From NCBI GenBank assembly GCA_027625915.1, contig JANTQA010000033.1:8556001-8620000 (forward strand): a stretch of 64,000 nucleotides of DNA, written 5' to 3'. The notes under the pieces were generated by a model, which was not told the origin of the DNA, did not search any database, and was given only the letters and a program-made list of their open reading frames with translations. The translations under genes and the position numbers were made by a program. Positions 3 through 48,649 of this stretch are shown in pieces (the stretch's first letter is position 1; the number at the start of each line of letters is the position of its first letter). This DNA comes from Anaeramoeba flamelloides. Lineage: Eukaryota; Metamonada; Anaeramoebidae.

Positions 3-3000
3 GAAACAAACGAGGATGGCAATTTAGAAAAAAGTCTGAACGAAATTGATAATGAATCAAAAGAACCACAACCAAAGACTTTTCCTACACTTCAGGATAA
101 CCAAAAAAAAGAAGAATTACCAATAAATACAAGTTTTAATGAAAAGTCAAAAGAAACAATTCAAAAAAACGAAGAAGAAACAATTGAATTTACCCTTGGA
201 AATGGAAACGAAGATGAAAATATATTGGATCAAGAAGAAGAATCAAATGAAGAGAAAAATGAAAATTTTCAAAATCAAGAAGCGAAAACAATTAAAGAAA
301 ATAAAGAAGAAACGATTGAAGAAATAAATGAAAAAGAAAATGAAGAAAAAAATAAAGAAGAAACAATTAAAGAAAAAGAAGAAGAAACAATTGAATTTAC
401 CATTGAAAATGAGAACGAAGATGAAAATATATTGGATCCAAAAGAAAAAGAACCAATGAAAGAGAAAAATGAAAATTTCCAAGATAACAAAGAGGAAGGT
501 TTCCCAAAAAATGAAGAAGAAAATTTTGAATTTACGATTGGTGATGAAAATCAAGATGGAAATTCTAATGAAAATTCAAAAGAAGCAGAAATAATTGAAA
601 ATGAAGAAGAAACAATTGAATTTACCCTTGCAAATGAAAATGAAGATGAAAATATATTGGATCAAGAAGAAGAATCAAATGAAGAGAAAAATGAAAATTT
701 TCAAAATCAAGAAGCGAAAACAATTAAAGAAAATAAAGAAGAAACGATTGAAGAAACGATTGAAGAAAATGAAAATGAAACAATTGAAGATGAAGACGAA
801 AATGTAAATGCTAAGGAAAACAAGGAAGAAACAATTGAATATACTGATGAAAATGAAAATTTAAATGAAGATGAAAATAAAGAAAAAAACATTGAAAAAA
901 ATAAAGAAGAACAAATTAATGAAAACGAAGAGGAAACAATTGAAGAAACAACCAATGAAAACGAAGAAGAAACAATTGAATTTACCATAGGAAATGGAAA
1001 TAAAGATGAACATATATTGGATCCAAAAGAAAAAGTTTCAATGGAAGAGCAAAATGAAAATTTCCAAGAAATTAAAGAAGAAGGTTTCCCAAAAAACGAA
1101 GAAGAAAATTTTGAATTTACGATTGGTAACGAAAATCAAGATGGAAATCTTAATGAAAATTCAAAAGAAGAAGAAATAAAAGAAAACGAAGAAGAAACGA
1201 TTGAATATACAATTGAAGATAAAAATGAAACTTTAAATATCAATGAAAATACAAATGTAAATTTCAATGAAAAAAAAGAAGAGGGAAATGAGTTTACACT
1301 TGAAAACGAAAAGATTGATGAAAAGAAAGATGAAACAAATGAAGACAACAAAGAAAAACATATTAAAAAAAATAACATGGAAACAATTAAAAATGAAGAA
1401 GAAATAATTGAATTTACTATGGAAGATGAAAACCAAGATGAAAATATTAATGGAAATTCAAAAGAAGAAGAAATAATTGAAAATGAAGATGAAAAAATTG
1501 AATATACAATTGGAGATGAAAATGTAAATTTAAATGCTAAAAATAATAAAGAAGGGGTAATTGAAGAAAATAAAGATGAAACAATTAAAAATGAAGAAGA
1601 AAAAATTGAATTTACTATGGAAGATGAAAATCAAGATGAAAATATTACTGGAAATTCAAAAGAAGAAGAAATAATTGAAAATAAAGATGAAAAAATTGAA
1701 TATACGATTGGAGATGAAGATGAAAATGTGAATGATACTAATAAAAATAAAAAAAACAACATTGAAGATTATAAAGAAAAAATGATCCAAGAAAATGAAG
1801 AAGAAACAATTGAATATACAATTGATGATGAAACCCAAGATGGAAATCTTAACTTAAATTCAAAAGAAAATGAAATAATTGAATATACAATTGAAGACGA
1901 AAAGGAAAATATCAATGCAAATGTGAATGAAAATACAATTGAAAAAAAAAGCATTGAATACACAATTGAAATTGAAAATGAAAATGAAAATATAATTGAA
2001 GATGAAAATAAAGATGAAAATGAAGATAACACAATTGAAGATTATAATGAAGAAACAATTCAGGAAAATAAAGAAGAGATAATTGAATTTACTATGGAAG
2101 ATGAAAACCAAGATGAAAATCTTAATGTAAATTCAAAAGAAGAAGAAATAATTGAAAATAAAGATGAAAAAATTGAATACACCATTGGAAATGAAGATGG
2201 AAATATACACGAAAATAAAAAAGAAGGGAAACAAGAAATTGAAGAGAATGAAGATGAAATAATTGAATATACAATTGAAGACGAAATACTCAAAATCAAG
2301 AAGCGAAAACAAACTAATGAAGAAACTAATGAAGAAAAAAGCATTGAATACACAATTGAAAATGAAAATGAAAATGAAAATGAAAATATAATTGAAGATG
2401 AAAATAAAGATGAAAATGAAGATAACACAATTGAAAAAAACAAAGAAAAAATGATTCAAGAAAATCAAGAAGAAATAATGGAATATACAATTGATGATGA
2501 AAATCAAGATGGAAATCTTAATGTAAATTCAAAAGAAGAAGAAATAATTGAAATTAAAGATGAAATAATTGAATATACAATTGAAGATGAAAATGAAAAT
2601 TTAAATGCTAAAAATAATAAAGAAGGGAAACAAGAAATTGAAGAGAATGAACATGAAACAATTGAATTTACCATTGAAAATGAAAATGAAGAACAAAATA
2701 TATTGGATCAAAAAGTTAAAGTTTCAATGGAAAACCAAAATAAAAAATTCCAAGAAAATACAGAAGAAACAATCGAAAACGAAAACACAATTGAAAAAAA
2801 AGATCAAAAAGAAAATGAAAATAAAGATGAAAATGTAGATATCACCATTGAAAAAAACGAAGAAAAAATGATTCAAGAAGATGAAGAAGAAACAATTGAA
2901 AATACAATTGAAAATGAAAATGAAAATTTAACTACCAATGAAAATAGAGAAATCAACTATGAAAAAAATGAAGAAGAAATCATTAGAAACACACTTGAAG

Positions 3001-5400
3001 ATGGAAAAGAAGTTGAAAATATCAATGAAAATTCTCAGAAAGAAACAATTGAAAAAAACGAAGAAGAAACAATTGAATGTACTATGGAAACTGAAAATCA
3101 AGATGGAAATCTTGATGAAAATTCAAAAGAAGAAAATCCCAATAAAAATACAGAAGAAGTAATTGAAGAAAACATTGAAAACAAAGGAGAAAATAAAAAA
3201 ATAACAGATCAAAAAGAAAATGAAAATAAAGATGAAAAAAAAAATTTAAATGATAATAAAAATAAAGAAACCAGCATTGAAGATTATAAAGAAAAAATGA
3301 TTCAAGAAAATGAAGAAGAAACAATGGAATATACATTTGATGATGAAAACCAAGATGGAAATCTAAATGAAAATTTGAAAGAAGAAACAATTGAAGGAAC
3401 AATTGAAGAAAATGAAGATGAAAATAAAGATGAAAATGTAGATATCACCATTGAAAAAAACGAAGAAAAAACGATTCAAGAAAATGAAGATGAAGCAATT
3501 GAAAATACAATTGAAAATGAAAATGAAAATTTAAATGTTAATAATAATAATAAAGAAACCAGCATTGAAGATAATAAAGAAAAAACGATTCAAGAAAATG
3601 AAGAAGAAACAATGGAAAGAAATAAAAATGAAAATTTAAATGATAAAAATAATAAAGAAGGGGCTATTGAAGAAAATGAAGATGAAACAATTGAAGAAAC
3701 AATTGAAGAAAATGAGGATGAAATAAATGAAGAGGAAAATAAAGGAATAAACATTGAAAAAAACGAAGAAAAAACGATTCAAGAAAATGAAGATGAAACA
3801 ATTGAATATACAAATGATGATAGAAATCTATTGGATAATTTTGAACAAAAAGACAGGCCATTAGAAAGTGAAAATATTTTGGATAAAAATGAAAATGAGC
3901 AAAATATTTTAAACGAAAATGAAATCGAAGATGAAAATAAAATTATATTTCAAAATATCAACGAAAATAAAGAAGAAACAATTGGAAGATGTGGAAATGA
4001 AAATGAAATTTTAAACGCCAATGAAAATAGAGAAAAAAACTTTGAAAAAAATGAAGAAGAAAATAAAGAAGAGATCATTGTACACAGGATTGAAGATGAA
4101 AACGAAAATGAAAACGAAAATGAAAATGAAAATATAGAAGAAAATTTTAATGAAAATGAAAATGCTAAGGTAAATGAAGAAGAAATACTTAAACAAGGTA
4201 CTGAAAACCAAAATGAAAATTTTCAGAATAATACAGAAGAAACGATTGAAGAAAAAGAAGAAAGGATAATTGGAAGCACTCTGGAAGATGAAGATGAAAA
4301 TCAATTGAGTCACTTTAACCAAAAATACGAAAATAAAAACGGAAATGAAAATGAAAACGAAATCATTGAAAATACTATTGAAGAAGGAAATGAAGATGAA
4401 AATAAAGAAGAAACAATTGAAAGCACAATTGAAAAAGAAACAATTGAAAAAAATGAAGAAATAGAAACAATTGAAAATACAATTGAAAATGAAAAGTTAG
4501 AAGATAACCTCAAAAAAAATACCAAAGAAAACAATGAAGACAATGTATACTTTACTCTAAAATACGAAAATGAAGATGAAAATAAAAATTTGAATGATAA
4601 AAATAATAAAGAAGGAGTAATTGAAGAAAACAAAGATGAAACAATTGAAGAAACAATTGAAAACGAAGAAGAAATAATTCAATTTACCATTGGAAATGAA
4701 AATAAAGATGAAAATATATTGGATCAAAAAGCAAAAGTTTCGATGAAAGAGCAAAACCAAAAAATTCAAAATAATCAAGAAGAAATGATTGAAGAAAATT
4801 TACAAGAAACAATTGAAGAAGAAAAATTAAAAGAAAATGAAATTGAAAATAAATATAAAAATGAAATTGAAAATGATAAAGAAAAAAAAATATCAGAAAC
4901 TGAAAATATAGAAGAAACTTTTAATGAAAATAAAGAAAATGTAAATGAAGAAGAAATACTTAAGAATGATACTGGAAATGAAGAAGAAAACGAAATTGAA
5001 AATGAAAATACAATTGGAAATGAAAATTTAAACGCCAATGAAAATAGAGAAAAAAACTTTGAAAAAAATGAAGAAGAAAATAAAGAAGAGATCATTGTAC
5101 ACAGGATTGAAGATGAAAACGAAAATGAAAATGAAACCGAAACTGAAAATATAGAAGAAAATTTTAATGAAAATAAAGAAAATGAAAATGAAGAAGAAAT
5201 ACTTAAACATGATACTGGGAATGAAAATAAAATTGGAATGGAAAATGAAATTGAAATGGGAAGCATTATTAATAAGGATGAAAACCAAAATGAAAATTTT
5301 CAGAATAATACAGAAGAAACGATTGAAGAAAAAGAAGAAAGGATAATTCGGGATACTCTGGAAGATGGGGACAAAAATCAATCAAATAAATTAGAACAAA
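3..5400 (+). repeat. Degenerate acidic protein repeats
   Basis: About 30 imperfect copies of a unit around ETIE(F/Y)T(I/M)(E/G)(D/N)ENxD(E/G)N, often followed by ILDQ or by NSKEEEIIEN. Some DNA copies are almost identical: about 100 bases near 232 recur near 661, and about 100 bases near 4011 recur near 5029, so the tract is still expanding or being homogenised. The sequence is almost only A and G on the coding strand. It is probably intrinsically disordered with short coiled-coil potential. Confidence 0.9.
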
Positions 5401-8400
5401 AAGAAAATATATCAGAAAAAGAAAAAGAAAAAGAAAATGAAAATGATATAGAACCAAAAAAAGAAAAACAAAACGAAGAATTTGGAAAAGTAAATGAAAG
5501 AGATAACAAGATTAAAGATGAAAAAGAAATAGAAATTGTACATCAACAAGAACAACAAAAAGAGCATACATATAGCAAACCAAAAGAAATAGAAGAAGAA
5601 AAGATGATCCAAATGGAAGAAAATGAAAAATCAGAAAAGACAAAAGAAATTGAAAAAGAAATAAAGAAAGATCAAGTTAGCATTATTACTGAAATAGATC
5701 ATCTTGTTGTACCTCAAAATAAATTAGGTTCTTTGGATCAAAATATGGTAATTGGTGATAATGATATTTTATTGAAGGAAATGGAAATTATCCAGGTGAA
5801 CGACAATGGTTTACTCACAAAAAATATTGAACCTTCAGAATTATTAACAAATATATATGAACAAGTAGAAGGTGAAAATGATCTTGATGAGTTTATTGAA
5901 AATCTTTCTGAACCAGAATCAGATCTTGATTCAGAGCATTTATTACTTATCGAACAAGAATTAAATTCCAATGATTCAAGCTCTTTTAATTTTGAAGATG
6001 GTTTTGAATTTGAAGAAAATCAAGAAACAAAAGAGAAAATATTACAAATTGATAACTATATCCAGGAAATTTCTGTATCTGAAGCAGAATATAACCCAAT
6101 TTCAAGTTCTGATATTTCTTCATTATTATCATTAATGTATTCTTTTAATAACGACAATCAATTAAAACAGGAAAACGATGGGCCAAAAGTGGAACAAGTT
6201 ATGGATGAACTACACTGGCCTGAAAACATTAATCAATTTATGATTTCGGAACTTGAAAAATTAAAAAAAAGACAAGAAGAAAGGAAGAAAGAAGAAGAAG
6301 AAGAAGAAAGGAAACGGGAGCTGGAACTGGAACTGGAACTGGAAAGAGAGATAGAGAGAGAAATCCTAGCAAAAGAAAACGAGACTCATCAATATATGGA
6401 CATGGATATGTTCATGGATTTAAGTCTAGACAATAATATCGATAATAGTAACAACGACAACAATTATTCTTTTGAGAACCCCCAGCAAATACCAATGGAA
6501 GGAGATATAGGAAAAGAACCTGAACTGGACAGGGAAAACGAAGAATTAATCGAAGAAAACGATATAAATAGTATAAATAATACCCGAGAGCATCAATCCA
6601 AACAATTATTAGTAAAGTCTAATTCACAAATTATAATAGGAAATAAAATGTCAAATAATTCTTTTAAAATGAAAAACAATTTACCTTTCAGAATGACAAA
6701 AACGTATTCAGATTCGAATTTAATGCAAAAAAATAAACCAAATATCGGCTTGGATAAAATGAATCTCAAGAATCGATCGCCATTAACACAAAACAGATTA
6801 AATTTAACAAGTAATCGGTTGACATCGAATAAGGGTAAAAATAATTATTCTCCGAACAAAAAAAAGAAAAAAAACCCTTTAACGACACAGCAAGCAATAA
6901 GAAAAATGAATCAGAATATAGAGAATGGTATAATCTTTGGCAAAGAAAATTTTCTTTTTTCAAATCCAGAAGAAATTGCTAAATTTATTTACCAAAATAC
7001 TTCGTTGCACCCCGAGAAAATTACCGAATATATGTCCTTACCGTAAGCTATTATTATTATTTATTTTCTAATTGGCATTGTTATTAATCCATTTTTTATT
7101 TTTTTTTTTTATTTTTAATTTTAACAATTAATATATTAAAACCAAAATGGATAAAATAATAGTAATCAAACTTCAAAACTTGTATTGGAATATTTTTCAA
7201 AATGTTTTATTTTTAGTAACCAACCAATTTCTGAATGTTTAAGGTTAGTATATCAATTTTTTTTTTTTTTTTTTCTATTCTATAAATTTTATTATTACAC
7301 ACAATTTATTTCAAGTAAATCAAAAAAAAAAAATAGTATTATTGAGGAAGAAGTGTAAATTACACTCTAATTGTCCTTATACTTAATTTTTCCACCAGAA
7401 ATTTAAGCGGAAAATCATAGATTTCACGATTGTTAATTAATGAAAATAGTCTTGAACTGTCACAGTTTAAAATTATTTCATTAAAATTTAATTCAAAATT
7501 TCCTGTTGTTAAAAAAAAAAAAGCTTTTAAAAAGAGAAAATTTTGTCCTTATGAGAAACAACACTATTACATTATGATGGATGTGTTGTTGATTAACCTT
7601 TTTGGGAGAATGTGTACAATTTGAAATTGTCCACCTTCTGTCAATAAGGCCATTACAATTTATTTTTCATTTTTTGTTTAATTTTAAAGAGGGATTTTGA
7701 AATTAAATTTTCATTTTTTTCTTTTCTCAAAATTTAGCAAGTGAATTAGTTTCAATAATGTAGTTCAGAACTAACAATAATAACGTGATAATTTATCAAT
7801 AGTTTATTCGTCATAAAAAACAAATTAAAAATAATTTTAGATCATTGAATTTTTTCTGTTTTTTTCAAAAAGTTAAAATATTTATTTTTATATTAAATAC
7901 TTTTGTAATCTTAAAAATAAAGACATTTTTTTTTTTTTATTAAATGATTCATTTTTAAATTCTTTGGATTCTTTTTATTAAATACTGGGGAACATATATA
8001 TATATATATAAACTGAAAGGTTTAATTTTAAATTTAATTTTTTTTTTTTTTCGGTATATATTTTACCTTTGAATTTAAGTGAGGAAACTTAACATGGAAT
8101 TTTAATAAAATTAAAATGAGAATGAAATTAAATTTTTTGATCTTTTACAAACAATTTTTTTATTTTTTTCGCAATATTTAAAACAAATAATAAATAATTT
8201 TTTTTTTTTTTTAAATAAATATTCTTGACAATAAAATTAAAATAGACAATATTGGCAAAGATTATCAAAACCAACTTCAAGAAAAACGATCATTAATTTT
8301 TTTTATCAATTTGGAAATAGTTATTCACTTCAAAATCAAAAACTCTCATTACCACCAGGTATTTTATTTATTTTTTTTTTTTTTCACAAATTTTTTCAAG

Positions 8401-9060
8401 ATATAAATACTAACAAAAATATATCTAAATTTATTACTTTTTTATAATTATATATATATATATATATATAAATATATAATAACAGGCATTATATCCAAAA
8501 TAGCGTTTAAATTAGCATTACTCATACCATCAAAATCGCGAAATATTATAAAAGAAAGAGATGAATTTATTGAATTTTGTAAATCTTTAAATCGCGGAAA
8601 GACCATTAATACCGAATTTTTAGAGAATTCTTATGATGATGTAATGGAAAATCCAATAACCTTTTTCTCTTCAAAGCATGAAGGGCTCCTTACTAAGCAA
8701 GGAGGCAAAAGAAAATCTTGGAAAAAAAGATATTTTATTTTGGTTCCTCAATATTTATTATATTATAAAAATGTGAAGTCTATTCAACCATTGGGTAGAA
8801 TACCCCTGGAATCAGTAATTGTTAAAAAAGAACCAGATTTAAAAAAGAGTAAGCACAAATATTTATTTTCAATTGAGCTACCTAAAATGGATAAGAAACT
8901 TAAAAAAAAGCCAATTAAAAAAAATAAAAAAATTAAAAAAGCTGTTCGGAAAAAATATCTTCTTTCAACAACCTCAACACCAGAACAAGATTTTTGGGTT
9001 GAATTAATCCAAAAACATATCGATGTTTTAAGTTGTTGGTCAGAAAATTGGTTGTTTTAA
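3..9060 (+). CDS. Giant acidic-repeat protein with C-terminal Sec7 and PH domains (5' end outside window)
   Basis: Arf-GEF-like protein. Proposed exons are 3-7042, 7163-7243, 8246-8358 and 8486-9060, all with GT-AG borders and matching phases, giving at least 2602 residues. The frame is open from the window edge, so the true start lies upstream. Residues 1 to about 1800 are Glu/Asn/Lys repeats; a mixed acidic and coiled linker follows, then a Sec7 domain (about 2294-2475) and a PH domain (about 2476-2590, with GLLTKQGGKRKSWKKRYFIL). The Sec7 segment opens with NIENGIIF, PEEIAKFIYQNTSL and EYMSLP, typical of cytohesin-like Sec7. Exon 2 restores exactly the expected helix (VLEYF for VLHAF), which supports the splice model. 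The family catalytic glutamate in LPGE aligns with Ser2385 (KPTS), and NT(D/S)LH aligns with IPSKS, so exchange activity is doubtful. The family normally activates Arf GTPases at membranes, with PH binding phosphoinositides. The domain call is strong; the function is inferred. Confidence 0.85.
7244..8245 (+). other. Long intron of the Sec7-PH gene
   Basis: The donor GTTAGT follows codon fragment AG, and the acceptor AATAG precedes A CAA TAT TGG, so phase 2 is kept. The Sec7 alignment runs through the join without a gap (CLRQ/YWQRL against ALRQFLWSF). No coding exon is needed inside. The intron carries a dispersed repeat at about 7650-8040. Confidence 0.75.
7650..8040 (+). repeat. Dispersed repeat, inverted partner at 18160-18545
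   Basis: The sequence from TTTATTTTTCATTTTTTG to the TATATA-AACTGAAAGG segment matches the reverse complement of 18160-18545 over several hundred bases with indels. Both copies sit in introns, one in the Sec7-PH gene and one in the Furry gene. The family is unknown and I see no terminal repeats or coding capacity. Confidence 0.65.
8449..8471. repeat. (TA)n microsatellite
   Basis: A run of alternating T and A inside the short third intron (8359-8485) of the Sec7-PH gene. Confidence 0.9.
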
Positions 9061-17100: not shown

Positions 17101-20100
17101 TGATTGAGCTACCATGATGCTAATTTTGATAAGGATCAATTTCAGTTACTTTTCCATTTTAAAAACTGTTTTTTTTTTTTCAATTGTAAAAGTTTATATT
17201 GGACACATGAACAATTTTTTTCAATATATTCAATCTTTGGAGTTATCATATATAAAAACAAAAGATAATTATTTCATAAATTAATTTTACAAAAGGCTTT
17301 GATTAAAAAAAGACGAAAAACTCAAAAGTAGAATTTTCATGTATCATGACTTCAAAAATTAAACTGCAAATGAATGTAAAAGGCCTAGAATCCTTTTTTG
17401 GTCTTTTCTCAAATCTATCTAATTCTTCATGTTTAAAAACCAAGTAAAACTGTAAATGAAATTAAAATTATCTATTTTTCAAAAAAAAAATACAATAAAA
17501 TCACTTCCCAAATTGATTTGAATATAGAAAACCACTAAATTTGAAAAAAACATTAAAATCTACAAAATGTATTCTTTAAAAAATGTTCAAAAGTTCAAAA
17601 AAAGAATTTACAAATAATTTTCAAGGAAAAAAAAAAAACTCAAAATATATATATATATATTTTGTGTTTTGTTTTGTTATTCTTAAAGCAAGTTGGCTGG
17701 CATTAACAAACCAAACTTTTAAAATAAAATAACAAACAAAAATCTTTGATAGATCATTCATTTTACAAAGTTAAAAAGAAAACCAGAATATTTTCATTAC
17801 TTTTTGAAAAAGCAAACCCAGAAACTCAAATCTTGACTAAATTTTTGATTTTACTTTCTCTAATGAGTAAATTCATTCACTTTTATGTTTTGTTAATTCT
17901 GAATAAGTTTTACAAGATGTATACAAAAATAGAAAACTTTTTCTTGATCGTAAACTAGAAAATTTTTTGTTTCTGTGGTTTGAAATTGAAAATGAATTAA
18001 TTTTCTAATAAGTATTTTAATAGGGACAAAATATTGCGCTTTTCAAGACTTCATAAAATAATTTTTTTTTTTTTTTTTGGGTAGATTAACAAGATTTGCT
18101 TTAAATCCAGAGATCAAATTCTTTATTCTTTAAAAAAAAAAAAATGATATACTTGAGAACAAAAAATTAAATTTAAAATTAAACCTTTCAGTTTATATAT
18201 ATATATTCTCAAGTGTTTAATAAAAAGAATCCAAATATTTTAAAAATGAATCGTGTAATAAATAAAAAAAAAAAATGTATTTATTTTTATGATTACAAAA
18301 GTATTTAAAATAAAAATTTAAATTTTCACTATTTTTCAAAAAAAACAAACAAAATTTCATGATTAAAATTATTTTTTGTTAATGTTTTTAAGATGAATTA
18401 ATCATTAATAATTATCTGATTATTATTTATTTATTCAGCCTATATTATTAAAACTTCCATCTTTATAAAATTTTCAGAAAAATAAACAAAATTTAATTTC
18501 AAAATTCCACTTTACAATTAAACAAAAAAATGCAAAATAAATTGAAGTGAATTTAATTTTTGATTTAAAAAAAAAAATTCTAAAAAAATAATTCAAATAA
18601 AAAAAGTGTTAAAAAAGTAAGTACATTAAACCATTTTGAAAAATTTTAATTGTAACAACTTTAATGAAAAATATTTTTTTAAAAGTGCCACCAGATATTG
18701 AAACTTTGAAACCAAAAAATCATTCGCTGCTCTATTTGTGAAAAGGAAAAGAACCTAAAGTAATTCAGAGTTGAATCTTTTCATTTTTCGATTTTTTGAA
18801 CATTTTTTTTGATTAAATTTTTGGTTTTATTAAATTTTGTTTTGGCTCTAGAAATGTGTTTATACGAACTATTGAAAATTAATCAAAGAGTAAACCAAAA
18901 AAAAAATACCAAAAAGGTGTGTATTTTAAACAAATATTTTCTTATAGAAGACCAAACACGAAAGATCACCCTTTTGAAATAAATTTGTTGACATCAAAAA
19001 TGAAAAAAAAAAACCCCTCTTTTCGAAGATTTGTTCTCTTTATATTCTTAATTTGAATGAATCCAAACAATTTATCACCTTGAATTTCTCTCTCCATTAC
19101 TATTCATTATTATTTATCTAAAAATTTTTTGTGACAAGTTTCCTTTCAAAATTCTTTTTTCAAATATTTATATCAAACAAAACCAAAATAAAGAACACTA
19201 TTTCAAAAATTAAAATAACAGTGGTTAAATTCTCTGAATCGAAAAAAAAACAGTTAAAAAAGATTCAACCCAAAATAAAAGAAAAAATTTCAATCAGAAT
19301 TCAGAATTATTTTTAGTTCTCATTTTAATGGAAAATAAATAATTATCAAATCAACAAACATGTCACATAATAAACATTTATCTCTGATGAGGAATTTCAA
19401 TAAATATCCTATTTTCTGAAACCCAAAACTAGAATTAGATGAATGAAATGACAATAGGATTTTTAAATTCATTTTGAGAAATTTTTTAGAAATAAAAAGT
19501 AATTTGTTAAATCAAATATTTTCCAATAAAAAATTTTTCAATGAAGAATTAAAAATGAAACCAAATTAAAGAATAAGTAGTAATTATCTCAAATATTACA
19601 GATAAGATCAAGAAATAAATGATTTTTATTTTGGTTTTTCTTGATCAATCTTTTCAATTTTTATTAATTCAATTTTTTATCTGATATGAAAATATATTAT
19701 ACTATGGATATCTGACACTCTGGTATTTATTAAAATATCAATTTATTTGGTTAAAGAAATGATTTGAATCATTTAGTTTCACATAAATGGTGGCACTCAA
19801 AATTTGAAAAATGTACTTACTTCCTTAATAATTCTTAGATTAATATTTTTCAAATTATTACTGGGCTAAAATTATTGGAAAATGGTTTATATCTACACAA
19901 TTATTGAAAGATTAAATTTTTCAAAAAAAACAAAAAATTTACAAAAATTAAATAATAATCTCAACCAAAACACCATATTTTTATCAAATATATCTTTAAT
20001 ATTATAGTTAGTGCTTTAAATTTAATGACGAAAATTGTCCAGCGTTCACCACAATTCTTTTTTAAAGATCACATTGATTCATTTTTATTAAAAAAGATCT

Positions 20101-22502
20101 TAAAAAAATGTAAATCTGAAAAGCAAAAGGAGAATTATTTAAATTTATTAATAAATTTTTTATTAGAGTGCAAAAAAAACGAGCCACCAACTGAAAAGAA
20201 GTTAGACTATTTCAATCCTGTTTCGTATTTAAATAATGCATTATGGCATTATTCATTAAACGGGCAATCGTTGATACCAGTTTTACGGTCTGATTATTCC
20301 AAATTGGAAGGTTTTATTATTAATATTGGGAAGGGACTATTTTTAAATAAAAAAACGAAATTTTCTACAAACATTACTCAATATTCAAAAATATTAGCAA
20401 TATGCTTTTTGGTTGATCTAGATTATACCTATAAGGAAATTTTCCCAAAATTGATCCAATCAAAGGAAGTTGATCAATTATTGGTAGTCTGTCGAACATT
20501 AATTATCTTAAATTTAAAGGAAATTAAAAGGCATTTAAAACAAAAATATGGATTAAGGTCTTTTGATTGTATTGGATTTGCATCAATTCGGCTAATAAAG
20601 CTATTGTTAGTTATTTTCCATACCATTGATGGAGAAATTAATTCAAAAAAAATGGGTATCAATGCAAAGGCATTAAAATTTAGTTATTTTACAAATTTAT
20701 TTTCAGACGAATTGCTATCAAATGAAGATGACGGTGGACCAATAATCGAATTTATTAATTCCTTAACAAATGAAAAATTAAATAACCAAAATAAAAATAA
20801 GGTATATTGGAATTTTTTATTACCCAATCAACAAGATATTACAAAGCATAAAATCATAAGAAAAAAAATTAATAATACTTTAAAAAAATGGACAAAATTA
20901 TTTTCAAATCAGACGAATTTAAAAGAATCTTTATTCAAATTATTTAGCTCAAATACCATTACAAATAAATTAAAATTTACTAATTTAATTATTAATAAAA
21001 ATTTGAACATTGAAGAAGACCATAATTTAACAAATTTGTCTTCGTCATCAAATTCATTATCTTTGTCGAAAATTGATTGCAAAATTCATCTCTTATCAGA
21101 AGTTTTCAAATTGTGTGCAATAATTAACCCGGAAAAGCATTTATTTTTTTCTAATGAATTGATTTATAATTATTTTTTACACCCAAATGAAGAATTGTCA
21201 ACAATTGCCTCGCATTCAATTCAATTATATTTATGTAAAAACCCTTCAAATTTTGGGCAAGTAATAAACAATTTAATTGATCTATTCACGAAACCGGAAT
21301 TTCTTTATCCGCAATGTCTCTACACCATTTTAACACAAATTTATAATTTAATTGAATTAATTGAAAAATTCGAAAAATTTTATTTAAAAAATTTTGATTT
21401 TTGTTATTTAAATTTTAGTAAAGAATCCTTTTTAAAATTAGATTGCTATTGCTTAATTTTTTTAACACAAAATTGTATAAAAGTTCGAGAAATTGCTTTT
21501 AATTTATTAAAAAAATTAACAAGCTTTAAAAAAAATTATTTAATCTTGAAGAATGATCAGAATAACAATAATAATCATAATAATGATAAGAATCAGGTTA
21601 ATAATAACCAAAGTAATAACAACAATAACAAAAATAATGAAAACGATGAAAAAATAAAAGACGATGGATTCAACACTATTTATAATATAATCATGAATAA
21701 TGAAGAAGTCATTTGTAAAAATGTACAAACTAATATTTTAATGGAATTAACTAATGGTTTGGAAAAAAAAAAAAAAATTTCAAAAGAGCTTTCAATTATT
21801 TTAATCAAAGATATTTTATCAACGCCGTTTTTCAATATTTGGATTTTGTATTTAGGTGAAATTGGAAAATTATTAGTTCAATTAGAATATTTAGATATAT
21901 TAGTAACATTAAAAGAACAAATATTTTCAATAATTAAAAATTTACAAATTCAAAAAACATTGAATAATGAAAATTATTTGAATGAAAATTCTTTATTATT
22001 TTTAATTGGGTTATTAAGTCTACTTTTTAGCACCATTGGTTTGAAAATAGAAAAGGATACAGAATTTTATAAATCATCTTATCATACTGGCTTAGTAGCT
22101 AGAAAAAAAAATAATTTAAGAAATGATTATTTTACAACTAAAGGAAAATTAAATAATGTGATACAACAAATTTGGAATGATTTATTTTCGAAAAATATTC
22201 AAAATAATTTAATTTGTTTAAAAATTTTATTTTATAACATACACCCATACTCTTTTTCAATAATATTACCTCCTTTGTTTGACTGGTTTGTTTGGATTGA
22301 AAATAATACACCAACCATTAATAGAAAAAGTTCATTAATGTCTTCAAACAAACAAAAAAAAAATTTCACTGCTAATATTAGTAATAAAAACAAGAATATT
22401 AAGAATTTCACTAATAATATTTCAAAAAATAAAAATAAAAATTTCAAAAGTAAAAACAACAACAAAAATATTAATAAGAGTGGTAATAATAATAATAATA
22501 AT

Positions 22503-22536
<34 letters not shown>

Positions 22537-24335
22537 GTAGTAGTAGTAGTAGTAATGATAATGATAATAATAATGTACAAATGAATAGAAGAAAAACAAT
22601 AAAAAATGTAGATTCTCAAACTTTTAATTTTATTATTTGTCAGTTAATAAAAATTGTTACTCAAAATAATAATTTGAAAAAAAGTTTAATGAAAGATCCA
22701 ATTATTGTTCCAATACTTTTTAAATTTTTAGATCAATTTTTTAAAATTTTTAAAAAAATTGGAATTTTTGATTTAAATAAAAAGCAATTTAATTTAAAGA
22801 TTTTTAAAGGTACATTTACTTCACATAATTTATTATTATTTCATGAATATATTTTAAATTTTTGTTTGATCCTTTTAAATATATTAAAGGCAATTTCAAT
22901 AAATTTTGAAAAGTCGGATTGCTTGAATATCACAAAATTAATTTATCCAATTTTAGTGGAAACTAATACCTTCCCCTATGAACAACGAAGTAAAATATTA
23001 TCGTTATTGGAAACGTTATCTGGATTTGGTAAAACTTCAAAACATTTTTATCAAAACATTAGTCAGTTGATTGAATATATTAAATTCAATATTAAAAAAA
23101 ATAAACAAAATTTGGATGAAATTTTATTGATACAACAAAATTTACCCAATATTGTATATTTAACAACTTCTCATTTAATCAAAATAACTACACTTTCAAA
23201 TATTTATCCGGAAAATTTTCTTCAAGAATATAATTGGCTTATTGAAATCGAAAAAAGGGGCTATAAGTGCTTGAAATGGTTATTAAGTGGCAAACTTGAT
23301 ATTTTCTTGCCGATTTTTTTTAAAAGCTGCTATCATAATATTGATAACAATATAAAAATCTTTCTAGATGCGATTTGCGAACAATTTTTTTTAACTGATG
23401 ATTTATTGAATCATAATCGAGAAAAATTAAATTATCATGATCAAAATATAAACACACTTGCTCTTCAAAATAATGATTTATTAAATTTCAAATTGGATAA
23501 AATGAATGGTGGTAGTAATAATAAATGTGATCTGAATTCATCTAAAAAGTCTAATAACAAAAGAAATAAAACACTCTTTGATAAAATTAATTTCCATTCA
23601 CAGAACAATACATTTTTAAAATTGATACAAGATAATGCGGGTAATTTATTGTTTTTAGGATTGGTTGGTTTATTATCTCAAAATGTTGATCAAAGATTAA
23701 ATTGTTACAAAATGCTGTGGAGAATTATACCGAGTAATTTAGGATTAAATTCTTCTTCTAATGAAGAAGAAGATCAAAAAAAAAAAATCATGGAAATTAA
23801 TCAAATATTTTATAACAATTATTCAAAAATTATCTCACCAAATTTTGAAATTTCACAAAAGGTTGCTTTTTTAATAAATGATGTTTGTTGTTCTCATTGT
23901 TCGTTTTTTTCTGAACATTTGCTATCTGAAGCCTTTTGGAGATTAAGTACTAGATTTGATAATCAGAATGGGTTTTTAAATGACCAATCAATTTCGAGAA
24001 ATGCCTTTTTATTAATGGACAAATGGATTAAAAATATTGGGCTCACTTCAACTAATATTTATATTGTTACCGATGCTTTTTGTAAAAGAGGCTTGTTATC
24101 AACGTTAGAGTTTTTGTTCCAAATTTTGTATTTAACAGTGGAAGAGGTGAAAATTCAAAATTCTGATATACCAGAATATGTTTTAAATATTTGGATTACT
24201 CTGACAAAGTCTACATCTTTAGAAATTTTTTTTAAAAACCATCAAGGTTTAAAGAATACAAATGATTTAAAATATAATAAATTGATCAAAGAACTTGATT
24301 TAAATTTTAATGAAAACAACAACACCACCACCACC

Positions 24336-24409
<74 letters not shown>

Positions 24410-27400
24410 TAATAATAATAATAACAATAACAACAATAATAATAACAATAAACAAAATGATGAAGAACAATTTAAAGAAAAAGAAAAGGATGAGGGTAAA
24501 AAAAATGATAGTATTAAATTTAATCAATATGAAAAATTGAAAAATAACAACATGTTAGATTGTAAATTTAGTTCAAATTTAATATCTATAATTAAATTTT
24601 TAGTGCAACACTCTAGTTTTCAACAATTACATAATGAGATGGCGAGAAAATTATTTTATCAAATTTCGATAATTTATCCAAAACAAACATTAATTCCGTT
24701 AGTTTATTCCTTTTCCTTACAATTTTGGAATGAATTAAATTCGAGTATAATCGGCTCTGTTGCCACCGATGATTTATCATTAATTTCAAAGATTTGTGAA
24801 ATTAGAAAAAAATTTGTATCAAACTTTGAAATAGATTTTGAAAGTATTCATACTTCAATTCGAATTTTAAAAAGCTTTGTAGAAAAAAAAATCCAAAATA
24901 TAATTCCCCATTTACCAACTATTATACATAGATTGATCATTTCAATTAGTTGTATTTCTTCTGAAAAAAATACCTTAAATAAAAAGCAAGAAAATTTTTT
25001 AGAATCCTTGATTGAATTATTAAAAACAATAATAAAAAATGTTTTAATATATATTAATGAGAATAAAAATAAAAAGTCGGGGGGTGATGGGAATGAGAAT
25101 ACAAAACAAGAACCAGAAAAGGATAAAGAAAATGAAAATGAAAATGAAAATGAAAATGAAAAAGAAACAAAAACAGAAAAAGTAAGGGAAAAGGAAAAAG
25201 AAAATAATAATAAAGAAGGGGAGGATGAAAAAAATGTTGAAGAAAACATAAAATTACTTTATTACTATATATTTGTGGATATTAAAAAAATGAAAAATTT
25301 TGGAATAATATTTGATGAAAAAAAAAAAATAAAAAATAATAATAATTCAAAAATTAATCAAAATTTATTCTATCGTAATAATAATAATAATAATAATAAG
25401 ACCGATAATGATAATGATAATGAATGTAATAAAATAAATATTTATGACTTTATTGAAAAATTATGTCAATTTTTGAGTAAAATTATTCCCAACATTAAAG
25501 AATTATGGGGAATTGAATCTGCCAAATATTCGTTGTTTTGTTTAAATACAAATTTCTGTTATTTTTCTTTAAAAATTTATAAACAGTTATTAAATCCATT
25601 AAATGAAACAATGTTAAATAGATTCACATTTACTATTTTTCGAACAGTAAAGGCCTTCTATAAAAAAAGAATTGAAAGCTTTCGGTTTTCAAAAACAATA
25701 ATGTATAATAAGAACTCAAAGTCTAAACCATTTTCCCAATTGAATAAAGCAATAAAAAATAGTAATAGCAATAATTATAAAAAATTCAATAAAAGGTTAA
25801 ACATGTATAATACACCAAATAAAATATTAACAAACCAAATTAATAATAAAAATGTTAATATTTCAGCTCAAATAATACTCTTTGAATTGATCCAAACTCT
25901 AAAGCAAATGACGAAAAAGATCATTCAAAATAAGAATTTCCCTCAAAATTCTGAAATTTTTTGGATAGTGACCTCCTTTTTACAATCTCAAAATTCTACT
26001 AATTTCAGACTGTATAAAATTTCCTTATCCTTTTTTAAATTATTAATTAAAAATAAAAATTTATTTGATTTTAATGATCAACAGTTTTTAAACTATAAAG
26101 CAAATTGGAGACAGCCATTTGAAGGTATACATGCATTATTATTCAAAGGCTTACAAAATCATGAAACTAGTGAAAAATGCTTCAAATTATTTTACAAATT
26201 CCTTTTTTGGGAAGAATCTCATTTTATTGAAATCAATAATGATAGATATTTAACTTCAATCATCATAATATTTTTTTCTTTTTGTATAAAATTAAAAGAA
26301 ATTAAAAACTTTAAAAAAATTAGTATGAAAAGTAAGAAAATTTCGAATTATCTTTCAACTTTTAATAATCATTTAAAATCTTTTGGTCACATTTTTAATA
26401 CTTTATCTGAAAATATCAATCAATTGTTAAATAACCAAGGCAGTGATAATGATGTTGTCAATGGCGGAAGGAGCGAGGAGAAAACAGAAAATGGAAATGG
26501 TGGCATAAACAAATTGGTAGTTGAAAATGAAACTAAAGAAAAGATTTCAATTCAAAATAATAATAATAATAATAATATTTATATCCAAATAAATAAAATA
26601 TTAAAAAAATGTTTAATTTTGATCGCAAATCAGATTTGTAAAGATTATTTGCCCAATGGCATTGTTCAGTTAAATTCTTTATTAATGCTATTATTAGAAA
26701 ACCCCAACGATTTGTATATCACAGAATTACTTGAATTTATTTGGAATATGTTAAATAACGAAATATTTCTCAAGGATATCAATAAATCAACGAATGTGTT
26801 GAAGCTAATTATTGAATTAAAAAACTTTAACAATTCGAAAATTAAAACAAAAATTTTGTCAAAGGTTATCCAATATTCGATAAAAAGAAGAGACACAATT
26901 AAAATTTCAAATGAATCAACCACTTTGAGGATTCCTTACACGGGCAATACCATTTATAGGTTAAGAGAAACAATCGACTCACTGGATTGCATTAATTCAA
27001 TTATTTATAAAAAGCATAATAAAACAAGATCGCAAGTCGACTTTTGGCAGGAAGAAAAAAAGTTTTTAGAAATATTGGTAACCAAATTTCAAAACTCAAT
27101 TCAAGTCAAGAATTTTGAACAAAATAAAAAAAAAATTAAAAAAAGCATTTATGAAATAAAAAATAAGAATTTATCAATACCAATCAATAAGGATGGTAAT
27201 AACACAGATAATAAAAATTCCAAAAAGACAAATCAACCACCAAAGAAATTTAGAAAAAAACGCAATAGATCCATTTCGAATCCAGATATAAAAATTAGCT
27301 CGCATATAATATCAGATTCCAATTTATCATCTTCGAATGATTCTTTCTTGATTGATAATATTGGTACAATCTCCACGGGTATCGAAGCACTCCAAGAATT

Positions 27401-28070
27401 TGAAACGCAATTAAACGAGCAGGGCGCCAAGTCTGATACCAATTCGTGGGATGAATACGACACCCAGGAGCTATCGGAAAATGGGATTAATTCTGGTTTA
27501 AGAGAAAGTATTTCTGGCCAGCAGCTAGAAGAAATCATTATCAAAATTAAAAGAAAGGAATCAATTATCAAAGGAAATAAAATCAAAGAGGTTAAGGGCG
27601 GTAACAATGGGAAAGGCAATGGAGAAAGTCTCGAAACAGACCTATTACAAAATAGAAAGATGTCTAAAAAAACAAAAAATCAGATAACCAATTTTTCCAA
27701 TTTAAAAGATCTTTTAAAAGACTCCCAATTAATCCAAGAATTTATTTCCTTTATTTCTTCAAACTGTGACGACAATGTGTTTTTAGCTTTTGATTTTTTA
27801 ATAAGCGTGTCAAATTATTTGTCATTAGATCCCCAAGATGCATTGCTAAACTCGAAATTAATTGTCGAAAGGTTTATTAACAATGATTCAATCGATAAAA
27901 TACAAATTTCAGATATTACCAGAATTGAAATAGAATTGGATTTCACTCAAAATATTGAAGACCATCCTAACAAAACACTGTTTTCAAGAGCAATAGATGA
28001 AATTTTAAAGCAATTAAAAGAACCACACCAAAAATTCCAATTGTTTAAAAATAACTCAGGCATGAAATAA
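14111..28070 (+). CDS. Furry-family HEAT/ARM scaffold protein (Fry/Tao3/Mor2-like)
   Basis: Furry proteins are very large HEAT-repeat scaffolds that support NDR/LATS kinases with Mob in control of polarity, morphogenesis and microtubules. Proposed exons are 14111-14853, 16371-16780 and 20008-28070. Phases match at both joins, giving a 3071-residue protein, close to the family size of about 3000. Family alignment runs through the N-terminal block (SLGQYCLSQSIQLIL for SLSEYCLPSILRTL), the second exon and the third (KDHIDSFLLKKILKKCKSEK), leaving no room for a missing exon. Low-complexity insertions interrupt the scaffold: Asn/Gly/Ser at about 1209-1241, about 38 Asn at about 1828-1866, and Glu/Lys at about 2081-2133. 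The ATG is preceded by an in-frame TAA. The two long introns are typical of this locus. The family call is confident; one-to-one orthology is not tested. Confidence 0.88.
14854..16370 (+). other. First intron of the Furry gene
   Basis: The donor GTTTGT is a weak form, and the acceptor AAAATAG precedes A TAT TTG GAA. Phase 2 is preserved (AA|A, Lys). It contains a diverged dispersed repeat (15640-15785) and long T runs. I see no gene inside. Confidence 0.7.
15640..15785 (+). repeat. Dispersed repeat, direct partner at 10700-10835
   Basis: Shares GCTCAAATAACTCTAAAAAA and neighbouring motifs with the copy upstream of the Furry gene. It lies within an intron. Confidence 0.6.
16781..20007 (+). 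other. Second intron of the Furry gene, 3.2 kb
   Basis: The donor is GTAAGA and the acceptor is ATTATAG before TT AGT GCT TTA. Phase 1 is preserved (T|TT, Phe). Short open frames inside (17746-17958, 19131-19316) look random. It carries the inverted partner of the 7650 repeat at 18160-18545. Confidence 0.75.
18160..18545 (-). repeat. Dispersed repeat, inverted partner of 7650-8040
   Basis: The reverse complement matches the first long intron of the Sec7-PH gene, including the AAACCTTTCAGTTTATATAT segment and the TTTTGAAATTAAATTTTG segment. Similarity fades at both edges. Confidence 0.65.
24336..24450 (+). repeat. AAT/AAC codon run coding for about 38 Asn
   Basis: A near-pure AAT tract within Furry exon 3, with AAC interruptions near its 3' end. 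It is in frame and preceded by a Thr run. A typical replication-slippage expansion, probably variable between strains. Confidence 0.95.
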
Positions 28071-34838: not shown

Positions 34839-35505
34839 TGGATTTTTTTTAGAAAGCTGAATAAATATTTTGTTATATTTATTTTGCAATAAATAGTATT
34901 CACTAAATCAGTTTTATTATAAAAAATAATTTCTGCCACCAATCTCAAAAAAAATCCAATAATTTTTATTCTTAGAAATCTGAAATAATTCTTTTTCTAT
35001 ACAAAGTTAATTTCATCACGGTAGAATTCATTTTGAGTATTTTATTCAACTCTAATACAATTTTTAAATTTATTTTTCAAATTAAAAAAACTTTTTTAAA
35101 ATCGAAGTAATTTTTGACAAATAAAAAAATCAAAAGAAACGGAATTTCCAAAAAGAGACAATAAAAATAAAATCCAAATCTCACATCAACAACAACTATG
35201 GTAACACGCCTCTTTAAATATTGGATTAGTTTTGAACCATTTCCAAGATAAGAGGAATTATTACTAAAAGAAGAAACATTAAAAATTGAAAATTGAAGAG
35301 CAACATTTTGAGATTAAAAAAAATTTCATACTTTAGTGATCAGATCTTATTAAAGAGAAGAGACTTGCTCCAAACATTTACCTTTCCTTCTTTAAAAATA
35401 AAGAATTAATTCTAAATAGAGGAAAAATTAACCACAGAGTTTAAATCGAGGTCTTTTCATTTTTTTTCGTTAATTTCTAAAAGTATTTTTTATTATTGAA
35501 CAAGA

Positions 35506-38437
35506 ATGGGTGCAGAAAAAAAAGGATCAAAACACAAGAAAGTATACATTGACAAAGTCTTAAAACTTTTGGATACCTATCAAAAAGTTCTTATTGTTTC
35601 TTCCAATAATATTTCATCCAAACAAATTCAAATCATTAGAAAAGCACTTTTAAAAAAGGCTGTTGTACTTATGGGAAAAAATGTAAGTATTTGCTTTTTT
35701 CTTTTTTTTTTTTTTTTTTTTGGTTGATAAATCTTCCAAATAAAATAAAATTTTTTGCTCTCTAAAAAACAAACAACAAACTTCAAACAATAAAAAAAAA
35801 ATCAATCTCAAATACAAAAATTCAAAAAGTCCTTAATCAGAAGAGCATGTAAAATGTATGCAGAAAAAAACCCAAAGGTCAACGAGTTAATTCCTTTAAT
35901 CAAACAAAACATTGGGTTAGTTTTCACAAACGAGGATCCAAGAGAAATCCGTGAAATTATTGTTGAAAACAAGATCAACGCACCAGCTAAGGCAGGAACA
36001 ATCGCACCAAATGACGTTATCGTACCAAAGGGTGACACTGGTTTAGAGCCAACCCAAACAACATTTTTACAAGCCTTAGATATCCAAACAAGAATTGCCA
36101 AAAGACAAATTGAAATCCTTTATGATGTCAAACTTGTTTCAGAAGGTGAAAAAGTTGGATCCTCAGAGGCTACCCTTTTAAGCAAACTTGGAATCAAACC
36201 TTTTGTTTATGGAATGAAACTTGTTCGAGTGTAAGTTTTTCGCTTTAAAATTTTTTTTTTCTTTTATTTATTCTTTTTATTTTTTACTTTATTAACTTTT
36301 TTATTCTCTTTATTTTCCTTTTTGTTCTCTTTTGTTTGAAACAAAAAACATTTCTTTTATATTTCTTTTCTGAATTTAATATATTTCTTTCAAAAATATT
36401 TTGTTCTTTGCTTCTGATATTTTTTGCTTTTTTTTTTTTTTTTTTTTATCTACCTTATTCTTTATTTTCTTTTTCTTTTTCTTTGATCAAGTTTCTAAAA
36501 AAATCAACAACTAGTAGTTGTTAATATTTTATGTTCTCCTCTTGAACTTTGATCAAATCTTAATACCTAAAGATGTATAACAAAAAAGAATCAACAAAAA
36601 TTTCCAAACAAAAACAATTCATATTTCATTTTAACAATTATTTTATGAAACACTTTTCAAAACTTTTTGTTACACACATTAACGAAACGTGCTAACACTC
36701 TTTTTTTTCCAATCTCTCATTTGCTGGTATTTGAAATTTAAATGATCAAAAATTTCGGAACTTTTTTTTTTAATTCTGAAATCTTACTGTACTACGGATT
36801 CTATGTTTAACTCAATGTTTTGCAAATAAAGCACCAAAAAAAAGTTCATCAAAAATCGTTAGAGATCATTGATTACGATCTATTTCTTGGAATTAACTCT
36901 ACGAGAAAAAAAAAAAAAAGAAAATCAAAAGGAAGTGTCCATTAGGGAAAAAAAAGTTATAACACTATTTTTAATTGGGAACCTGAAAATTCAAAGTAGT
37001 GTCGATTAATAAAAGAAAAAATAAATGTTTCAAAGGCCAAATGGAGGAATCAAAACAATAGTAGTTTTTCTAATACTAGCTTTTGGTCTGAGGTTTTTCT
37101 TTGATTGATTGATCATTTTTAAAAATATGTTATAAATATTTGGCTATTTTCGAGATCTCCAAAACCACTCAAACGATTTCGCTATGAAAGGGGAGATTTA
37201 AATTGTGTTTTTTGATTTGATTGAAAATAATAGAAATAGATTATTATTTGAAGTAAATTGGTTTCTTCTATTAATTGATTTTACTTTTTCGTTTTCAGGT
37301 TTCTGTGATTCTATTAATGTTCCCAATTAAAAACCGTGCTTTACCTTTTTTCCCTGTTTCACTTTTTTCCCATTTAAATTTCAAATACCATTATTAAAAA
37401 ATACATTAATTTGTTTTAAAGATCTAATGGAAACTCAATTTATTTACTTTTATATTCACACTAAACAGATTACTGTTTTGATAAAGAAGGAAAAAATAGA
37501 GATATCATGTTTTTACTTGTGTTTATTTCTTTAAGGGACTAGTCTCTATTATTTTTTTTTTACCAATTTCTAAATAAGGATTCCTTATCTAGAAATAAGT
37601 TTAATATTGAAAATAAATAGGGGTTTTCAAATCTAAGTAATCGGCAAATAATTTTCTCAATCTCTATTAAATTTAGGTTAAATAATTTAATAGAGATTAG
37701 TCCCTTAAAACACTATTTATAAAAGAAAAAGAAAAGAAAATGAAGTGAAAATAAATCCCATTTAAATCTCAAATACCGGCATTAAACAATACATTAATTT
37801 ATTCCAAAGATTTAATAGAAATTCAATTCGTTTACATTTATATTTACACGAAACAGATTAATTTTTAAAATGAGACGAAAAAAAAAGGGGTTGATCTCTT
37901 TTCGTAATTTATTAAACAATCCATCTTTAAAAAAAAACTATTTGCTTTACAAGACTTTTCACAGAACAAAAACCTCTTCTAAATCTCAAAAATACTGCTT
38001 TTAACTCTTTTTTTTTTTTATTTTATTTTTTTTTTTTTTCAAATCAAACAAAAAGATACGACAATGGTTCAGTTTATGGTCCAGAAGTTCTTGATATCAC
38101 TGATGAAATGCTAAAAAAAAACGTCTTAGAAGAACTTGGAAACATTTCAGGAATCAGTCTTGAATTAGGATTCCCAACACAAGTTTCTCTTCCTTATTCC
38201 TTTATGAACAACTTTAGAAACATTCTTGCCATTTCCCTTGAAACAGGATATGAAATCAAAGAAGCAGAATCCATCCGTGAATTACTTGAAAACCCAGAAG
38301 CCTTAAAAGAGCTCATGGAAAAACAAAACGAAGGAGAAAAAGATGAAAAAGAAGATGAAAAAGAAGAAGAAGAACCAGAACCAGAATCAGAATCAGAATC
38401 AGACGACGACATGTTTGGTGGTGGTCTTTTTGATTAA
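35506..38437 (+). CDS. RPLP0: 60S ribosomal stalk protein P0 (uL10)
   Basis: P0 anchors the P1/P2 stalk on the large ribosomal subunit and helps recruit translational GTPases. Exons are 35506-35682, 35830-36230 and 38056-38437, with phases 0 and 2 matched, giving 319 residues, within the usual 310-325. Visible landmarks are MGAEKKGSKHKKVYIDKVLK at the N-terminus, the rRNA-binding region through LMGKN-SLIRRACK, GLVFTNEDPREIREII, NAPAKAGTIAPNDVIVPKGD, and VRV-YDNGSVYGPEVLDIT across the second join. The C-terminus is a Glu/Ser-rich hinge ending SDDDMFGGGLFD, the conserved P-protein tail. An AATAAA-type signal follows at about 38521. The second intron is 1825 bp, long for a highly expressed gene, and is filled with repeats. 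Confidence 0.97.
36944..37371 (-). mobile_element. Terminal-inverted-repeat element, family A copy 2
   Basis: The right end, read inward on the minus strand, gives GGGAAAAAAGTGAAACAGGG and TTTTTAATTGGGAAC, as in copy 1. The left end keeps TTTTTAATTGGGAAC but its outermost part is degraded. The internal GAGATCTCCAAAACCAC is the reverse complement of copy 1, so the element is inverted relative to it. It lies inside the P0 intron. Confidence 0.75.
37371..37500 (+). repeat. Direct repeat in the P0 intron, partner at 37757-37885
   Basis: CATTTAAATTTCAAATACC, then ACATTAATTTGTTTTAAAGA, and later CACTAAACAGATTA recur about 386 bp downstream with substitutions. Confidence 0.75.
37535..37704. mobile_element. 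TTAA-flanked miniature inverted-repeat element
   Basis: The ends GGGACTAGTCTCTATTA and the inverted TAATAGAGATTAGTCCC are each flanked by TTAA. A 170 bp non-coding element with TTAA target duplication resembles piggyBac-type insertions, but the superfamily is inferred only from the TTAA. An internal short hairpin AATAAGGATTCCTTATCT is also present. Confidence 0.7.
37757..37885 (+). repeat. Direct repeat in the P0 intron, partner at 37371-37500
   Basis: CATTTAAATCTCAAATACC, then ACATTAATTTATTCCAAAGA, and later CACGAAACAGATTA, in the same order as the upstream copy. Together they bracket the TTAA-flanked element. Confidence 0.75.
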
Positions 38438-48400: not shown

Positions 48401-48649
48401 TCCGGGTTGTTTATAATCGATTTAATTTACTCCATAAATACCAGAGCTGTAAATTATAACTATGTTTCAGATGGTAATTCAAATGAAGAAAAATCAAATA
48501 ACGCCAGATACGCTATTTCCTTAACTAGAAAATTAGGTGGTACTGTGTTCTTATTGCCTGAAGATATCATCGAAGTTAAAGATAAAATGATCTTAACACT
48601 TGTTGGGGAATTAATGAGAATTGACCGTGTTTTAAAATCAAAAAATTAA
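45404..48649 (+). CDS. Coiled-coil plastin/fimbrin with four calponin-homology domains
   Basis: Actin-bundling protein of the plastin family. Four CH domains fill the 3' half: CH1 about 47120-47500 (HWINNKLKFDRDLNHLLPIG, DGLLLCKLINACVPETIDVR), CH2 about 47560-47910 (ELIIKWFNYHL), CH3 about 47945-48270 (RSFRNWINSLGVNPKV, LKDGVILLQVIDHV) and CH4 about 48310-48640. Usual plastins carry two EF-hands in front; here there is instead about 560 residues of coiled coil (45430-47090), interrupted by an Asn/Glu/Gly-rich stretch near 45700-45800. The annotated frame is not continuous. ATG 45404 leads into an 18-A run, after which the coding frame is shifted by one, and the frame shifts back between 46115 and 46150, where there are 9-A and 8-A runs. 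Homopolymer errors in the assembly are the simplest explanation. No intron is needed. The family call is firm; the exact start is uncertain. Confidence 0.85.

Follow-up and report, generated by a model that had tools for sequence, protein, structure and literature searches.

The mechanism of nucleotide exchange by the Sec7 domain has been described (PMC1950683), and the guanine nucleotide exchange factors (GEFs) for Arf share a glutamate, the glutamic finger (PMC1950683, PMC4525183). In the cytohesins, the exchange site is restrained by the linker between the Sec7 and PH domains together with a polybasic C-terminal helix (PMC6948192). A departure from this pattern is human BIG3 (ARFGEF3), whose Sec7 domain is without the FRLPGE motif and its glutamate, a condition conserved in its orthologues; the protein is considered an unlikely GEF (PMC4096751) and binds Rab2A-GTP (PMC6639074). 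FBXO8 (Fbx8), another Sec7-bearing protein, mediates ubiquitination of Arf6 and may not be a GEF (PMC2721971, PMC4644846). Here we describe a gene for a predicted Sec7-PH protein in a 64,000-nucleotide stretch of Anaeramoeba flamelloides DNA (assembly GCA_027625915.1, contig JANTQA010000033.1, positions 8,556,001 to 8,620,000 of the forward strand), referred to throughout as the window.

Compared with these systems, the window gene is most like cytohesin-3/Grp1 and ARNO, with which it shares a Sec7 domain followed by a PH domain in tandem and, in the latter, a Grp1-type phosphoinositide signature. It differs from the cytohesins in four respects: the finger glutamate and the NT(D/S)LH motif are missing, the Sec7-PH linker is shorter, the N-terminus is giant and acidic, and no polybasic C-terminal helix was found in its predicted chain. 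The loss of the finger glutamate recalls BIG3; however, BIG3 is related to the large BIG GEFs, whereas in the window gene a PH domain is present and neither HUS nor HDS was found. Its likeness to FBXO8 is that of a Sec7 protein that is possibly not a GEF, but no F-box or other Pfam domain was found in its first exon. A Sec7 domain without the glutamate is therefore already known from human BIG3, and what is new is a cytohesin-like family of at least 17 genes in one genome without the second motif. In searches of open-licence papers, none of the titles and abstracts listed on Sec7 diversity or inactive Sec7 domains mentions such an expanded family, and no paper was found that joins the Sec7 domain with Anaeramoeba. 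Anaeramoeba genomes are A+T-rich, and A. flamelloides has more than 1100 ribosomal protein genes and expanded membrane-traffic families (PMC11550330); the word Sec7 is absent from the main text of that paper.

A complete Sec7 domain without its active-site motifs

The window gene lies on the plus strand, as do all of its features given below, and its Sec7 domain emerges once four predicted exons are joined. The C-terminal 323 residues of the spliced product match Pfam Sec7 (PF01369) with an E-value of 4.6e-23 over profile positions 5-183 of 183 (query residues 16-190) and Pfam PH with 1.7e-16, while the unspliced frame of exon 4 matches Sec7 at 0.02 only. The closest Protein Data Bank (PDB) match of the tandem by phmmer is cytohesin-3/Grp1 (1.9e-24), and Grp1 and ARNO (cytohesin-2) head the PDB matches whether the tandem or chains of a single domain are considered. 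A chance resemblance to Sec7 was rejected on the strength of the full-length Pfam match and the PDB match. These results bear out the sequence-only reading, which had proposed a cytohesin-type Sec7 domain assembled by splicing across three introns. The span it gave, 7163-8643, does not reach back to the first part of the domain, encoded by exon 1, which we place at 6885-7042 from the Pfam match of the spliced query and a Sec7 match from the genome itself.

The phmmer alignment to cytohesin-3 runs without a gap through the glutamic-finger motif (motif 1), setting LSKPTS opposite FRLPGE and, further on, IPSKS opposite NTSLH (motif 2). Where LPGE is expected, the window gene reads KPTS (8268-8279), with Ser2385 of the window frame (8277-8279) in the place of the catalytic glutamate; where NT(D/S)LH is expected, it reads IPSKS (8524-8538), an assignment that the alignment of the family also gives. 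Both substitutions are those named by the sequence-only reading, and the predicted domain thus shows neither hallmark of a Sec7 Arf GEF. Over the Sec7 part, 42 of 171 columns (25%) are identical to cytohesin-3, and 46 of its 62 hydrophobic columns are retained. The motif assignment draws on the full-length Sec7 match; both motif peptides, scored alone, reach no higher than the window background.

Several other explanations were considered. A single sequencing slip was rejected, as going from any L, G or E codon to the K, T or S codon present takes at least two base changes each time. A hidden canonical exon was likewise rejected: neither L[PA]GE nor PGE occurs in any plus-strand frame of 6858-9060, including intron 2 (7244-8245), where the sequence-only reading had considered an alternative LPGE exon, although this search would miss a motif interrupted by a splice site. 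The sole literal NTSLH in 6858-9060 lies at 6996-7010 and aligns with the KGEGL part of cytohesin-3; as this is the wrong part of Sec7, it was dropped as a candidate for motif 2. A plain motif search would falsely score motif 2 as present through these five residues. The absence of the catalytic residue and of an active-site motif from a complete predicted Sec7 domain is thus confirmed for the window gene.

Exon model and layout of the predicted protein

The four predicted exons are joined in frame, with GT-AG borders throughout. Exon 1 (3-7042), delimited by its open frame and by splicing, encodes the acidic repeat region, a linker and the first part of Sec7, and is contained in a single open frame (3-7046) of 2347 codons in the window. 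Its ATG lies outside the window, 33 nucleotides upstream of window base 3 and immediately after an in-frame stop, which gives a predicted protein of 2613 amino acids, 2602 codons of which are visible inside the window after splicing. Intron 1 (7043-7162; 120 nucleotides, 86.7% A+T) is followed by exon 2 (7163-7243), a phase-neutral segment of 81 nucleotides carrying the Sec7 helices that precede motif 1. Beyond intron 2 (7244-8245; 1002 nucleotides, 81.3% A+T), exon 3 (8246-8358) carries motif 1 and, like exon 2, was set by splicing and by alignment to cytohesin-3. Intron 3 (8359-8485; 127 nucleotides, 91.3% A+T) separates it from exon 4 (8486-9060), which splicing and Pfam assign the end of Sec7, the PH domain and the stop codon (9058-9060).

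Read in the frames given above, the Sec7 part of exon 1 has a codon score of 0.23, exon 2 one of -0.03 and exon 3 one of 0.08, while the two parts of exon 4 reach 0.24 and 0.07; the frames of the three introns all fall between -0.49 and -1.15. Exon 3 holds a second open frame with a nearly equal codon score (0.01); its frame is therefore taken from the alignment and the paralogues. Intron 2 stands apart from introns 1 and 3 in length and in its lower A+T content, and may possibly contain an insertion.

Residues 1-1900 form a degenerate repeat in which Glu (29.5%), Asn (18.2%), Lys and Ile abound, with a net charge of -455; a core of the type IEFTI or IEYTI is matched 30 times. The sequence-only reading had taken this acidic repeat for a tail; it stands upstream of Sec7, as an N-terminal arm of about 1900 residues. 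Cytohesins have an N-terminal coiled coil; in the window protein, a charged stretch was noted by eye at about residues 2100-2165. Searched unspliced at E<=1, exon 1 gave no Pfam family; HUS, HDS and F-box were found by Pfam neither there, at that threshold, nor in the C-terminal 323 residues.

The predicted PH domain (8674-9021), located by Pfam and by alignment to Grp1, carries the phosphoinositide-binding signature KQGGKRKSWKKRYF, followed after an interval by YY, and this signature is intact. The inositol-phosphate contacts of Grp1 are K273, G275-G276, R277, K279, T280, R284 and Y295. At the corresponding columns, the residues of the window PH domain are Lys, GG, Lys, Lys, Ser, Arg and Tyr. 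After the PH domain, no polybasic C-terminal helix was found in the predicted chain of the window gene, which stops shortly past that domain; exons further downstream were not searched.

A family of Sec7-PH genes in the same genome

The whole genome (254 Mb in 76 contigs, the window being C34:8556001-8620000) was searched with Sec7, giving at least 89 matches, of which some, including C34:9314607, C1:10872426 and C37:6864561, were left unread, and with the spliced tandem, giving at least 115. We define the family as the 17 genes, window gene included, whose last or single exon matches at 1.2e-18 or better; motif 1 and the last exon were read for all 17, with exons on the same contig joined into one gene by nearness. 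With these paralogues in hand, the idea of a single odd gene was rejected. Their layout repeats that of the window gene, with a long first exon that closes on the start of Sec7, then a motif-1 exon, then a last exon holding the end of Sec7 and the PH domain. In C46 and C64 (L032, L033), unlike the other family genes read, the whole Sec7-PH protein lies in one frame of 673 amino acids.

The finger residue is other than Glu in 12 of the 17. Glu is kept in five (C46, C64, C24:20250, C32 and C24:6099); Asp occupies the position in four (C61, C22:1808, C29 and C57), Asn in five (C33, C34:1425, C1, C48:2708 and C26), Lys in C48:8533, Thr in C24:12179 and Ser in the window gene alone. The sequence-only reading had suggested a search for paralogues with the same substitution: paralogues without the glutamate do exist, while serine is, among the 17, particular to the window gene. 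Within exon 3, the finger column ranks seventh of 38 for variability in the family. Motif 2 is uniformly lost, with NT(D/S)LH in none of the 17: the first-position N, the fourth-position L and the fifth-position H never occur, and the second-position T occurs twice. The IPSKS of the window gene is akin to IPSDK and IPSEK of C57 and C29, its relatives in the tree.

The Sec7-PH linker is 12 residues shorter than that of cytohesin in every family gene read, and the chain ends 15-18 residues past the last Trp in 16 of them, the window gene having an extra Trp at its end. The PH signature is intact in 13 of the 17, the window gene among them, and altered in C48:2708, C26, C57 and C29. Two similar genes, C22:2336938 and C61:2295035 (L082-L085), fall outside the 17 with last-exon matches of 1.8e-6 and 1.5e-5. 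Both were read in part: neither last exon has NT(D/S)LH, the PH signature has deteriorated in both, and motif 1 could be located in neither.

Other Sec7 genes of the genome

We sort the remaining Sec7 genes into BIG-like, GBF-like and cytohesin-like by presumed resemblance; Pfam was run on L017, L019, L020, L024 and L033 only. Coexisting with the family are 19 genes of canonical type that retain the glutamate: nine BIG-like genes (L001-L009) with LPGE and LHTDAH, five GBF-like genes (L010-L014) with LPxE and NTDM or NTDL, and five cytohesin-like genes with IPGE, four of which have NTDAH or NTDLH, motif 2 of the fifth being unread. Nine more cytohesin-like genes (L088-L101) are intermediate, with Glu in six (such as IPNE, CPNE and CTNE), no Glu in three, and motif 2 altered in all nine.

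Eight BIG-like genes (L016-L022, L024), aligned by eye, are without the finger glutamate, having Asn in four, Ser in two and Asp in two, with LYxNLKN or similar as motif 2. They resemble the window gene in the replaced finger and differ from it in their domains: among the four scanned, Pfam found HUS in all and HDS in two and reported no PH. Altogether, the finger glutamate is absent from 23 of the 53 Sec7 genes read.

Phylogeny and selection

Trees were built from exons 3 and 4 only. The 17 family genes form one clade (support 100/99) against 17 other Sec7 domains, namely human cytohesin-3 and, from the same genome, two cytohesin-like, seven of the nine intermediate or decayed, two BIG-like, one GBF-like and four of the eight BIG-like genes without the glutamate. 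With PH included and two outgroups, support for the clade is 100/100. The genome thus holds a clade of at least 17 predicted Sec7-PH genes that includes the window gene. The latter groups with C48:2708, C57 and C29 (95/94 with PH and two outgroups; 90/82 with the 17 other Sec7 domains), on a branch of length 1.07 and with a best identity of 39%. Because the four BIG-like genes without the glutamate group with canonical BIG-like genes (81/89), two origins of the glutamate-less sets are suggested, the BIG-like set having probably arisen separately from the Sec7-PH family.

Ratios of nonsynonymous to synonymous substitution rates (dN/dS) were estimated by the Nei-Gojobori method with our own script for seven close pairs drawn from 11 genes, three of the pairs sharing genes; the Sec7 part compared comprises exon 3 and the end of Sec7 (91 codons). 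Sec7 dN/dS is 0.301 for C46/C64 and 0.121 for C32/C24:6099, the two pairs that keep Glu, and 0.032 for C61/C22, 0.135 for C29/C57, 0.155 for C33/C1, 0.422 for C33/C34:1425 and 0.359 for C1/C34:1425, the five that do not. The corresponding PH values are 0.201, 0.083, 0.103, 0.363, 0.095, 0.151 and 0.098, so that in five of the seven pairs Sec7 is the less constrained of the two domains. The compared Sec7 part is under purifying selection in all seven pairs, five of them without Glu; with dN/dS between 0.03 and 0.42 throughout, the domain is therefore maintained also where the glutamate is gone.

Other features of the window

The window is eukaryotic DNA with 76.6% A+T. It contains a ribosomal P0 gene with introns (35500-38437), one of 11 near-identical P0 loci in the genome (96-100% identity). 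The high A+T content and the many P0 loci accord with A. flamelloides. A Furry/Mor2-like frame of 2703 codons (19959-28070; PF14225, 1.1e-9) includes poly-Asn tracts. A frame at 46115-48649 has four CH-domain stretches (PF00307) and is, by resemblance, presumably fimbrin-like. Scans of the window for transfer RNAs and against Rfam gave no matches; pattern scans of viral contigs and of genome contigs gave 31 and 121 matches, none confirmed, and exon 4 had no match in a phage collection.

Functional interpretation

The sequence-only reading had proposed a pseudo-GEF that keeps its fold and its PH targeting, and this proposal is well supported by the loss of both motifs in the window gene, the loss of motif 2 across the family, the purifying selection in paralogue pairs and the intact PH signature. 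We consider it probable that the window gene belongs to a lineage-specific family of Sec7-PH proteins that serve as phosphoinositide-recruited scaffolds without glutamic-finger exchange. The PH domain would recruit the protein to membranes rich in 3-phosphoinositides, and the Sec7 fold would act as a non-catalytic protein-binding module, whose partner may be an Arf-family or other GTPase, or another protein; the sequence-only reading had suggested that an Arf-like GTPase may be bound or sequestered. The strongly negative N-terminus of about 1900 residues may act as a spacer or as a binding arm or surface. A short linker and the lack of a polybasic helix would be expected of such a protein, because no exchange activity would be left to restrain; this is an argument rather than a test.

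Several observations weigh against the scaffold interpretation. Five of the 17 family genes carry Glu (IPTE or IPIE), so that not all of the family is necessarily inactive. The 25 motif columns have five identities to cytohesin-3, and 40% of same-size block pairs in the domain are equally bad; the motif columns have thus dropped to the background identity of the domain and not lower. The window gene sits on its long branch without a close partner, the dN/dS values come from paralogues alone, and they cover exon 3 and the end of Sec7, not its first half. In its three nearest relatives (C48:2708, C57 and C29) the PH signature is altered, and likewise in C26 and in the two similar genes outside the 17. 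Finally, the gene model, fold and function of the window protein are predictions from sequence.

That the window protein is still a GEF by way of some other residue or geometry, its substrate perhaps being an Arf or Arl that has diverged, seems unlikely to us. Purifying selection on the compared Sec7 part would suit continued exchange, as would the Glu of five and the Asp of four family genes, but in the window gene the finger is Ser and NT(D/S)LH has gone with it, and the finger column varies more than most others in exon 3, unlike a conserved new catalytic residue. We see a distinctly small chance that the protein is mainly a PH-driven effector, binding active Arf through its PH surface as at the cytohesin allosteric site, with the Sec7 fold merely structural. 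The allosteric site of cytohesin is centred on PH and binds Arf6-GTP (PMC6948192), and the window PH domain resembles that of Grp1 and keeps its signature; however, the polybasic helix that forms part of the cytohesin site was not found after PH in the predicted chain, although a downstream exon may encode it.

A decaying locus, in which the motif losses would reflect relaxed constraint, is very improbable: it would fit the long branch of the window gene and the nine other Sec7 genes in intermediate decay, but not an unbroken frame of some 2613 codons whose introns have GT-AG borders, an intact PH signature and purifying selection in the paralogue pairs. We can hardly credit an erroneous exon model with a canonical motif 1 in another exon, for although the model was predicted from the DNA letters, intron 2 is long and less A+T-rich and exon 3 has its near-equal second frame, the alignment is collinear and ungapped through motif 1, PGE is absent from the plus-strand frames of 6858-9060 and the paralogues have the same motif-1 exon.

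Returning to the scaffold interpretation, a wider version can be put forward tentatively, as something less than an even prospect: in this lineage, Arf GEFs may have given rise at least twice, in the cytohesin-like and the BIG-like branches, to families of non-exchanging Sec7 proteins that expanded and have been maintained. The Sec7 fold would then have become a binding module of general use, and the branch with PH domains would comprise phosphoinositide-steered scaffolds or competitors of active GEFs. With a finger residue that varies across the family, close copies that are constrained and a BIG-like set that is also without the glutamate, these genes provide a natural series on the roles of Sec7 beyond exchange.

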